From positions 1 to 64,000 of the forward strand of contig CAITEP010000023.1 in NCBI GenBank assembly GCA_903891475.1: DNA of 64,000 nt. Direction: 5' to 3'. Positions 57,106 through 58,197 of the stretch are shown piece after piece; the stretch's first letter is position 1, and the number at the start of each line of letters is the position of its first letter. The translations under genes were made by a program, and so were the position numbers. Source of the stretch: an uncultured Mucilaginibacter sp. GTDB lineage: Bacteria > Bacteroidota > Bacteroidia > Sphingobacteriales > Sphingobacteriaceae. The notes under the pieces are model-generated. The model ran no database searches, was not told where the DNA came from, and saw only the letters and a list, made by a program, of their open reading frames with translations.

Positions 57106-57232
57106 GAGATATTTTGAGTACACATACCTAGAACGAAACAAACAGTTTAAAGTTTTGAGATACCTCAAAAATTGAATTCAAATTATAAATATTAGTGGTA
57201 AAAACCATTTAAAAAATGTTATAAATAAGCAA

Positions 57233-57258
57233 AGCCCCTGATGGGCAGGGGCTTTTGC
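57233..57258. terminator. Terminator hairpin after the tRNA-like genes
   Basis: AGCCCCTG and CAGGGGCT form a perfect 8-bp GC-rich stem with a 5-nt loop; flanking GCAAA/TTTGC extend it. It lies between the tRNA-like copy 1 and the AI-2E gene and would end the minus-strand transcript of the tRNA-like pair. Confidence 0.75.
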
Positions 57259-57292
57259 TAACCAATTATAAACCTAAATTATGAGAAGAGGC

Positions 57293-57407
57293 TGTAGGAG
57301 AAGGAGTCGAACCTTCACGAAGTGGTTATTCTCATTGCTGAGAGTTTCCCATGCTCTTCGCCACCGCGACAAGGAGGTGTGTCTGCCAAAAATTTCACCA
57401 TCCTACA
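57293..57407 (-). tRNA. tRNA-like RNA copy 1, tRNA-Leu-type core with GTC anticodon and a very long variable region
   Basis: On the minus strand: acceptor TGTAGGA/TCCTACA (7 bp), a Leu-type D arm (GTG, AAATTTTTGGCAGA, CAC), and an anticodon arm CCTCC-TTGTCGC-GGTGG (T33, anticodon GTC, purine 37, one T-T mismatch). The T arm is GAAGG-TTCGACT-CCTTC. The discriminator is G and CCA is not encoded. Between anticodon and T arms lie about 44 nt, with an outer stem CGAAG/CTTCG and an inner hairpin TCTCA-GCAA-TGAGA. Total 115 nt, well above normal type II tRNAs. GTC would read Asp codons while the body is Leu-like, so it may not be an ordinary translating tRNA. Confidence 0.6.
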
Positions 57408-57416
57408 GTATAGTAG

Positions 57417-57452
57417 TCCAAAATATCAAATTATTAATTTTAAAATTTTGGA
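57417..57452 (-). other. Spacer hairpin between the two tRNA-like RNAs
   Basis: TCCAAAAT and ATTTTGGA can form an 8-bp stem, with an additional AAATTA/TAATTT pairing inside. It may serve as an RNA processing site in the shared precursor. Confidence 0.35.
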
Positions 57453-57457
57453 ACAGC

Positions 57458-57569
57458 TGTTGGGGAAGGGTTCGAACCTTCACAGAGTAGTTAGTCAGTA
57501 AACTGATTTCCCAAAATCTCTGCCACCGCGACAAGGAGGTGTGTCTGCCAAAAATTTCACCACCCAACA
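57458..57569 (-). tRNA. tRNA-like RNA copy 2, same core, different variable region
   Basis: On the minus strand: acceptor TGTTGGG/CCCAACA, then a D arm and anticodon arm identical to copy 1 over positions 8-43 (anticodon GTC). The T arm is GAAGG-TTCGAAC-CCTTC, with G discriminator and no encoded CCA. The long variable region (about 41 nt) has outer stem CAGAG/CTCTG and inner hairpin TCAG-TTTA-CTGA. Both differ from copy 1 in sequence but keep pairing, while TGGGAAA on the 5' side and a TAACxA element on the 3' side are conserved. Acceptor stems also co-vary. Total 112 nt. The co-variation argues that both copies are under selection as structured RNAs. Confidence 0.6.
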
Positions 57570-57618: not shown

Positions 57619-57649
57619 CAAATCTAATAGGAGTATCAATTTGTTGCAA
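57619..57649 (-). promoter_or_regulatory. Bacteroidetes-type promoter of the tRNA-like pair
   Basis: On the minus strand TTG (57649-57647), a 20-bp spacer and TAGATTTG (57626-57619), an exact consensus match. Transcription would start about 40 nt before copy 2 and read both copies to the terminator at 57233-57258. Confidence 0.65.
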
Positions 57650-57723
57650 ATATTTCAATGAAATATTTTTATTTTTATCAGATTTTAATTATTCTTGTAT
57701 ATAAATAAAATTTTTCGAAAATT

Positions 57724-58197
57724 ATGACCCATAGAAAAGCACAAAATTTAGAAATTGATAATCTTGACATACAGATTTTATCAATATTAATGAAAAATGC
57801 TACTACACCTTATACCGAAATAGCAAAAGAATTGATAGTTTCTGGCGGAACGATACATGTTAGAATGAAAAAGTTAGAAGAGATGGGCGTAATTAAAGGG
57901 GCAAGTTTGGAAGTTGACCCTCAGAAGCTTGGATATGATATCACCGCCTTCCTTGGTATATTTTTGGAAAAGGGTTCGCAGTATAATGAAGCTGTAAAGC
58001 AATTAAAAACAGTGAAAGAAATAGTTGAACTTCATTATACTACAGGCAGTTATAGCATTTTCGCCAAAATTGTTTGCCATGATACTACACATTTACGTGA
58101 AGTTTTAAACGAACAAATACAGGGCGTTAAAGGAATACAACGTACCGAAACCTTTATTTCATTGGAGGAAAGTATAAGGAGGCAGATATCGCTATAA
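57724..58197 (+). CDS. Lrp/AsnC-family transcriptional regulator
   Basis: A 157-residue regulator. The N-terminal helix-turn-helix is LDIQILSILMKNATTPYTEIAKELIVSGGTIHVRMKKLEEMGVIKGASLEVD (about 17-68). The C-terminal RAM/AsnC ligand domain (about 75-150) has TAFLGIFLEKG, VVELHYTTGSYSIFAKIVCHDTTHLREVL and GIQRTETFISLEES. Family members sense amino acids and form octamers. It is divergent from the tRNA-like pair, and the promoter of that pair lies within its upstream region. This leaves open a regulatory link, for which there is no direct evidence. Confidence 0.93.
   Translation: MTHRKAQNLEIDNLDIQILSILMKNATTPYTEIAKELIVSGGTIHVRMKKLEEMGVIKGASLEVDPQKLGYDITAFLGIFLEKGSQYNEAVKQLKTVKEIVELHYTTGSYSIFAKIVCHDTTHLREVLNEQIQGVKGIQRTETFISLEESIRRQISL

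Follow-up and report, generated by a model that had tools for sequence, protein, structure and literature searches.

A family of tRNA-like RNAs in Bacteroidota and viral contigs with features pointing to asparagine synthesis rather than decoding

The 64,000-nucleotide stretch of Mucilaginibacter DNA analyzed here (hereafter the window) encodes two tandem tRNA-like RNAs. These belong to an RNA family with a conserved structure and conserved identity bases, which co-occurs with gatB and often lies near an AsnC-type regulator gene. Judging from its sequence, the RNA looks built to be loaded with aspartate that is then converted to asparagine, and not to read codons, and we estimate at roughly 65% the probability that AspRS and GatCAB use it as a dedicated, non-decoding tRNA for making asparagine. 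The literature searched, mostly papers outside subscription journals and including parts of PMC7609411, PMC8007984, and PMC11415595, yielded no description of it.

Two tandem tRNA-like genes

An earlier note on this DNA, which gave no strand, had described two tandem tRNA-like RNAs of 112–115 nt, and both are present, arranged head to tail on the minus strand with copy B first (5′). Copy A spans 57407..57293 (115 nt, RNA 5′ end at 57407; covariance-model match of 122.6 bits), with its discriminator G73 at 57292 and an encoded C74 at 57291, and copy B spans 57569..57458 (112 nt, RNA 5′ end at 57569; 117.8 bits), with G73 at 57457 and C74 at 57456. As the note had claimed, the two copies share an identical core and differ in their acceptor, outer variable, and inner hairpin stems with pairing retained, and each combines a T-T mismatch, a TTGTCGC anticodon loop, and G73. 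The anticodon had also been read correctly as GTC: the loop lies at 57366..57372 in copy A (minus strand; GUC at 57370..57368, G at position 37, C at position 38) and at 57528..57534 in copy B (minus strand; GUC at 57532..57530). The T-T mismatch occurs in all 23 distinct copies of the window’s family and in none of the 101 other distinct copies. The variable domain of copy A (57318..57360, minus strand) comprises an outer stem CGAAG/CTTCG, an internal motif TGGGAAA..TAACCA, and an apical hairpin TCTCA/TGAGA, and that of copy B (57483..57522, minus strand) an outer stem CAGAG/CTCTG and an apical hairpin TCAG/CTGA. Across the family the internal motif takes the form GGNAYAAA..CUAAC, which is reminiscent of a UAA/GAN loop.

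Standard tRNA models did not recognize the two window RNAs. ARAGORN detected no tRNA in the window, and Rfam 15 at gathering scores matched no family either there or in eight further loci; with E values up to 10, Rfam gave 11 weak matches in the window, all below the gathering score and none to a tRNA family. Across 28 loci, ARAGORN called no gene in 27 and recognized only a compact copy (locus L373). The folding energies of copies A and B are ordinary (z of −1.1 and −0.5), and the structure was hence judged from relatives.

A structured RNA family across Bacteroidota

Used as a DNA query, copy A matched 94 of 151 genomes of the same taxonomic family; a genome had between 1 and 7 matches, frequently arranged in tandem. 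The covariance-model search over Bacteroidota that the earlier note had proposed was run with a model (R1) built from 51 copies and returned homologues with compensatory changes phylum-wide, in 38 of 395 genomes and 25 of 170 genera at a strict E value of 1e-13. A pattern scan of named genomes yielded at least 120 stretches, and the 80 of these that were listed include Mucilaginibacter, Pedobacter, Chitinophaga, Hymenobacter, Pontibacter, Spirosoma, Dyadobacter, Cyclobacterium, Algoriphagus, Fulvivirga, Saprospiraceae, and one Ignavibacteriales MAG, among others. The 124 distinct copies that were aligned range from 108 to 210 nt, mainly through growth of the variable domain. Genome G374 carries a compact version of ~76 nt with hardly any variable arm, which retains U1:A72, G73, and C74 with a CTATCTC loop, and the existence of this version indicates that the large variable domain is not indispensable.

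In the 124-copy alignment, which was fitted to the R1 structure, 99.1% of stem cells pair vs 91.3% in shuffles (sd 0.2), and double changes occur at 13 of 24 pairs; each of these values was reached by 0 of 500 shuffles, and pairing dropped to 52–65% in slid controls. The acceptor, D, anticodon, and T stems all covary, as does the outer stem of the variable domain in the family alignments, and the T loop conforms to TTCRA, with TTC in 124/124 copies. Seventy of the 124 copies came from the pattern scan, in which the D loop and anticodon arm are in part prescribed. RNAalifold, making its own structure prediction on the same R1-fitted alignment, returned the same cloverleaf. When 51 family members were simply aligned with MAFFT, 94.2% of cells paired (a value that 0 of 500 shuffles reached) and double changes were seen at 6 pairs (1 of 500). 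Within these 51 members of the window’s family, no covariation was detected in the anticodon stem, where four pairs are invariant and one is never paired; it emerges only phylum-wide, in the 124 copies.

All 124 copies encode C74, and positions 75 and 76 are not fixed. The same holds for the 36 ordinary tRNA genes found in the Mucilaginibacter genome, which encode C74 in 36 of 36 cases with no fixed C75 or A76, in a register that was derived by pairing and may be off by one in a few cases. This shared encoding of C74 suggests that the tRNA-like RNAs undergo the same 3′ processing and CCA addition as ordinary tRNAs.

Tandem amplification is seen in L033 (2799-4326), with three RNA copies ~705 nt apart, in L032 (3984-5600), with five copies ~370–400 nt apart, and in L034 (3006-3720), with five copies exactly 150 nt apart. 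Short palindromes are embedded in, or adjoin, the D loop or variable domain of some tRNA-like RNAs, namely CCCGATAGCTATCGGG in L148 and next to the copy in L186, with near-forms in L163, and GCGTACGC in the viral loci L384, L411, and L461. A separate palindrome, GCCCCGATAGCTATCGGGGC, replaces the 5′ acceptor/D region of a second tRNA-Leu(CAA) in the Mucilaginibacter genome (L085, C30:18700-19400, minus strand), ~0.3–0.4 kb from an intact copy. Finally, locus L374 (contig C10 of genome G012) holds a truncated tRNA-like gene without T arm or 3′ acceptor, although gatB, GlnRS, and AsnRS are all retained in this genome.

Copies in viral-labelled contigs

In IMG/VR, a scan with the same pattern gave at least 120 stretches, their viral status being that of the IMG/VR label, and all 80 of those listed produced matches to a second covariance model (R2) at 65–124 bits. 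BLAST of copy A against plasmids and GenBank phages gave no match. Base counts were made on 64 distinct viral copies from 78 loci, two loci cut off at an end being excluded, and show G73, G34, and C74 in all 64 and U1 and A72 in 63 each. No AsnC-type HTH motif was detected in the 80 listed viral loci. ARAGORN called at least one tRNA in 51 of these 80, including, in L440, the tRNA-like RNA itself; the copies of L440 and L373, both compact, were called tRNA-Asp.

A second tRNA-like series was observed in viral contigs L405 (5131-8251), L452, L417, and L414. It consists of a near-constant 5′ acceptor and D arm (AGTCAGGTGGCGGAATTGGTAGACGC and variants) and a near-constant 3′ T arm and acceptor (ATACAGGTTCGAATCCTGTCCTGACTA), which flank ~40–110 nt of unlike sequence at the expected place of the anticodon arm. 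Within the 3′ constant part, one 23-base stretch is found exactly seven times in L405, four times in L452, and once each in L414, L417, and L421. From its sequence, this series resembles a tRNA scaffold that carries variable cargo.

Identity bases for AspRS and GatCAB, and an anticodon loop poorly suited to decoding

Across the 124 distinct copies, U35, C36, C38, G73, C74, G2:C71, and A72 are each invariant, U1 occurs in 123, and G34 in 112 (replaced in 12). Because U35, C36, and C38 were preset by the search pattern for 70 of the copies, we also counted the 54 not found by pattern, in which all three are again invariant (54/54) and G34 occurs in 51. Bacterial Asp identity is listed as G73, G10, G34, U35, C36, and C38 in PMC9976931; of these, G10 is present in 23/23 copies of the window’s family and in 28/124 overall. 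That source describes G1-C72 of bacterial tRNA-Asp as crucial for Asp identity, and here 123 of 124 copies have U1:A72 instead, such that AspRS may charge the tRNA-like RNA poorly. U1-A72 is, in turn, the pair that GatCAB reads on tRNA-Asn (PMC4206432). Together, the Asp identity bases and U1:A72 predict charging with Asp followed by amidation to Asn, and co-occurrence with gatB provides a test of this prediction.

The RNA shares GUC, C38, G73, and G2:C71 with ordinary tRNA-Asp (GUC), from which it differs by U1:A72 in place of G1:C72, a Leu-like core, a mostly pyrimidine base 37, a variable base 33, and a length of 108–210 nt save in rare compact forms. With type II tRNA-Leu it shares a Leu-like D arm and a long variable arm, but it does not have the A73 and Leu anticodon of that tRNA, carrying instead G73 (124/124), mostly GUC, and a far larger variable domain. 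The Leu-like core is probably a scaffold only.

The anticodon loop is badly suited to decoding as far as its bases indicate. Base 33 is U in 96/124 copies and another base in 28/124; base 34 is G in 112, A in 6, C in 4, and T in 2; and at base 37, 115 copies have T, 5 have C, and 4 have G. A37 was excluded by the search pattern, so the fair count for this last position is that of the 54 non-pattern copies, with T in 48, G in 4, and C in 2, i.e. a purine in 4/54. The combination of U33 and a purine at 37 does not characterize the family, but both window copies have T33 and G37, which makes the case against decoding weaker for these two than for the family.

Co-occurrence with gatB

Co-occurrence was evaluated in 80 genomes, hand-chosen from ~690 by family and RNA status before any gat search, with GatCAB scored by gatB alone. 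Model R2 split these genomes: 39 carried a copy of at least 103 bits, the compact copy of G374 scored 70.7 and the truncated copy of G012 57.9, and the best score of any other genome was 55.4. Matches at or below 57.4 bits were read as ordinary Leu-type tRNAs on the basis of length and of one shared coordinate in the Mucilaginibacter genome. Among the 66 genomes of the same class, 38 with intact RNA and 28 without, gatB was found in 38/38 vs 4/28 (Fisher 3e-14, phylogeny ignored). Three of the four gatB-positive, RNA-negative genomes (G010, G023, and G343) lack GlnRS and therefore need GatCAB for Gln-tRNA, and the fourth, G012, has both GlnRS and AsnRS and only the truncated RNA copy. When considering only the GlnRS-positive genomes of the class, gatB was present in 35/35 with RNA vs 1/25 without (Fisher 7e-16, phylogeny ignored), and within family f1 alone in 12/12 vs 3/11. 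AsnRS was found in 66/66 same-class genomes and in 79/80 overall.

Outside the class, two genomes of family f48 carry both the RNA and gatB (2/2) without GlnRS. All of the 12 genomes from other classes match gatB (10 above cut-off) and have no RNA; their GlnRS status is mixed (4 to 8), and their GatCAB would be explained in other ways. Within the window's own class, gatB occurs where GlnRS is absent or the tRNA-like RNA is carried, with one exception. For the Mucilaginibacter genome itself (G000), no tRNA-Asn was seen among the tRNAs found, probably a limit of the search, in which 150 of 324 candidates were scored.

Distribution of asparagine synthetases

E. coli-type AsnB (PRK09431, cut-off 499 bits) exceeded the cut-off in 0/38 RNA-positive vs 17/28 RNA-negative genomes (Fisher 9e-9, phylogeny ignored), and in 0/12 vs 7/11 within family f1. 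Sixteen of these 17 are full proteins at 715–958 bits and one, in G331, is a 414-aa piece with an interrupted frame (707 bits); an AsnB-like protein of the RNA-negative genome G355, at 491.8 vs 499 bits, falls under the cut-off. Broader AsnB homologues (TIGR01536) were matched in 33/38 RNA-positive genomes, and the 30 proteins above the cut-off of that model may well make asparagine, given their sequence. The PRK09431 scan of RNA-positive genomes covered one TIGR01536-matching protein each, except that two were taken from G378 and that the second-best represented G366, its best being left out; 30 proteins scored 210–338 bits, those of G565, G488, and G546 did not reach E 1e-60, and none passed. 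In the Mucilaginibacter genome and two relatives, the AsnB homologues sit among genes that resemble, by eye, polysaccharide-export genes.

Five RNA-positive genomes (G004, G018, G025, G448, and G616) have neither an asnA nor an asnB-like match. AsnA was found in 4/38 RNA-positive and 5/28 RNA-negative genomes. Eight of the 28 RNA-negative genomes lack both AsnA and PRK09431-type AsnB, including four (G005, G319, G415, and G347) that also lack gatB, and the RNA is therefore not simply a substitute for AsnB. Overall, we regard the distribution of asparagine synthetases as supportive, not conclusive.

An AsnC-type neighbor and putative transcription signals

A gene for an AsnC-like Lrp/AsnC regulator (157 aa) lies at 57724..58197 on the plus strand, divergent from the tRNA-like unit, and is a conserved neighbor. 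The protein carries Lrp/AsnC Pfam domains, and its best NCBIfam match is AsnC (PRK11179) at 179.1 bits, below the equivalog cut-off of 227. An AsnC-type gene is found within 1.5 kb of the RNA in 65/102 loci, the next commonest neighbor cluster reaching 11, and was divergent in 12/12 of the cases with known orientation (12 of the 65). By a separate motif count, a divergent AsnC lies within 1.2 kb in 57/101 loci and was not found within that distance in 44/101, 8 of which offered too little room. AsnC-type regulator genes also occur in genomes without the tRNA-like RNA, and in G355 an AsnC-family gene starts beside an asnB-like gene, in divergent orientation. In E. coli, AsnC activates asnA and Asn lessens this activation (PMC8707732). 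The arrangement here is similar to that AsnC-asnA pair in placing an AsnC-type regulator gene beside a presumed Asn-synthesis unit, and differs in that the neighbor is an RNA gene and the regulator scores below the AsnC equivalog cut-off.

Upstream of the tRNA-like unit, TAGATTTG (57619..57626, minus strand) is a candidate −7 element that matches the Bacteroidota-type −7 consensus TAnnTTTG, and TTTG at 57650..57647 (minus strand) is a possible −33 element. TAnnTTTG occurs at most 62 nt upstream of 64/125 copies vs 5.4 in resampled sequence. A perfect 9+1+9 palindrome, AATATTTCAATGAAATATT (57649..57667, without strand), noticed by eye, overlaps the possible −33 element and, from its sequence, is a possible AsnC operator. 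A related palindrome-like motif, chosen after looking at the data and allowing up to one mismatch, lies upstream of 39/125 RNAs vs 2.8 in resampled sequence, and the same post-hoc motif is present in 16/69 copies without a detected divergent AsnC vs 1.1.

Downstream of copy A, a terminator-like hairpin with a T run is located at 57231..57255 (minus strand; 1 found, 0.4 expected in shuffles). We rejected a role as cis-regulator of a downstream gene because this hairpin follows the RNA, and because in L032 and L033 a separate promoter-like sequence and terminator were seen by eye for each copy. In the window, AATTTAGGTTTATAATTGGTTAG (57283-57256, minus strand) lies between the end of the RNA and the hairpin; it is also present in L032, from another genus, and may be a 3′ trailer.

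Proposed role and alternative explanations

The suggestion in the earlier note of a specialized tRNA, perhaps with a non-translational role in aminoacyl transfer, gains support from the homologues, the encoded C74, the loop poorly suited to decoding, and the co-occurrence with gatB, the last of which points to tRNA-dependent amino-acid synthesis. We propose that the RNA, once transcribed and provided with CCA, would be charged with aspartate by AspRS through the Asp identity bases GUC, C38, and G73, after which GatCAB would recognize U1:A72 as it does on tRNA-Asn and amidate Asp to Asn. This Asn would then supply the cell, in the simplest case being released by deacylation as free Asn and loaded by AsnRS onto ordinary tRNA-Asn. 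A GUC tRNA carrying Asn would misread Asp codons, and the RNA would therefore have drifted away from decoding, as the varied base 33, the mostly pyrimidine base 37, and the insertion of a large variable domain may reflect. This domain may exclude the RNA from EF-Tu and the ribosome, or may stabilize an AspRS-GatCAB complex, and the divergent AsnC-like regulator probably controls the RNA according to Asn, as E. coli AsnC does with asnA.

This scheme resembles the tRNA-dependent asparagine synthesis of Deinococcus, Thermus, and Bdellovibrio, in which a (non-discriminating) AspRS and GatCAB act on tRNA-Asn (PMC4206432); the resemblance lies in a gatB that accompanies AsnRS and, for the most part, GlnRS, in a tRNA bearing U1:A72 and G73, and in the absence of canonical AsnB. 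In contrast to those systems, the carrier predicted here is a distinct tRNA that does not decode and has an Asp anticodon, and a non-discriminating AspRS would therefore not be needed. GatCAB might instead act, as in Bdellovibrio, on ordinary tRNA-Asn charged by a non-discriminating AspRS, with the tRNA-like RNA making no Asn and serving only as a regulator or sensor, e.g. of Asp- or Asn-tRNA status. PMC4206432 does raise the possibility that Asn is made on tRNA-Asn, which has U1-A72, in bacteria (including Bacteroidetes) that have AsnRS, GlnRS, and GatCAB but lack an Asn synthetase. In our data, the sole ordinary tRNA-Asn met in a Bacteroidota locus (L312, from an RNA-negative genome) also has U1:A72, and the RNA adjoins a regulator gene. 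However, every genome needs tRNA-Asn, so this explanation leaves unaccounted for why gatB tracks the tRNA-like RNA (35/35 vs 1/25 GlnRS-positive genomes), and a sensor would hardly need the conserved U1:A72, G73, and C74, which are retained even in viral-contig copies. We consider it unlikely, while taking it seriously.

The unusual anticodon loop would also suit an RNA charged with Asp or Asn that donates its amino acid to a non-ribosomal acceptor such as a lipid, the cell wall, or a peptide, a form of donation for which cell-wall tRNAs are a precedent. No transferase-like gene recurs among the neighbor clusters listed, however, the most frequent after AsnC (11/102) being acyl-CoA ligase-like by eye, and we find this role distinctly improbable. 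Still less credible is a working ribosomal tRNA-Asp isoacceptor with an oversized variable arm: most copies do carry GUC, and ARAGORN called those of L373 and L440 tRNA-Asp, but the Mucilaginibacter genome already has an ordinary tRNA-Asp(GUC) with G1:C72, U33 is absent in 28/124 copies, base 37 is U or C in 50/54 non-pattern copies, base 34 varies, and the link to gatB would go unexplained. We give virtually no credence to CACCUCCUU, in the anticodon arm of the window copies, acting as an anti-Shine-Dalgarno mimic and decoy for SD mRNAs. Nine of its bases equal the 16S rRNA 3′ end, and it is invariant save for one loop base in 51 family copies, but as a general function this idea is refuted by the stems of other families, which read CCCUC, CCGCC, or CCGUC.

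Asparagine synthesis by AspRS and GatCAB on a dedicated tRNA remains the reading we favor. A fuller version, on which we are evenly divided, is that these RNAs form a new, never-decoding class of tRNA in Bacteroidota and viral contigs that serves as a reusable RNA cofactor for AspRS/GatCAB asparagine biosynthesis, replaces protein asparagine synthetase in many lineages under AsnC-type control, and lets the phages that carry it secure asparagine during infection. If true, asparagine synthesis on these RNAs would explain why GatCAB is kept by bacteria that have AsnRS and GlnRS, a question raised in PMC4206432, and would represent a tRNA with a metabolic job and not a decoding one. Predictions that Bacteroidota are auxotrophic for asparagine could also be corrected, and the presence of copies in viral contigs points to asparagine supply as a factor that counts during infection.
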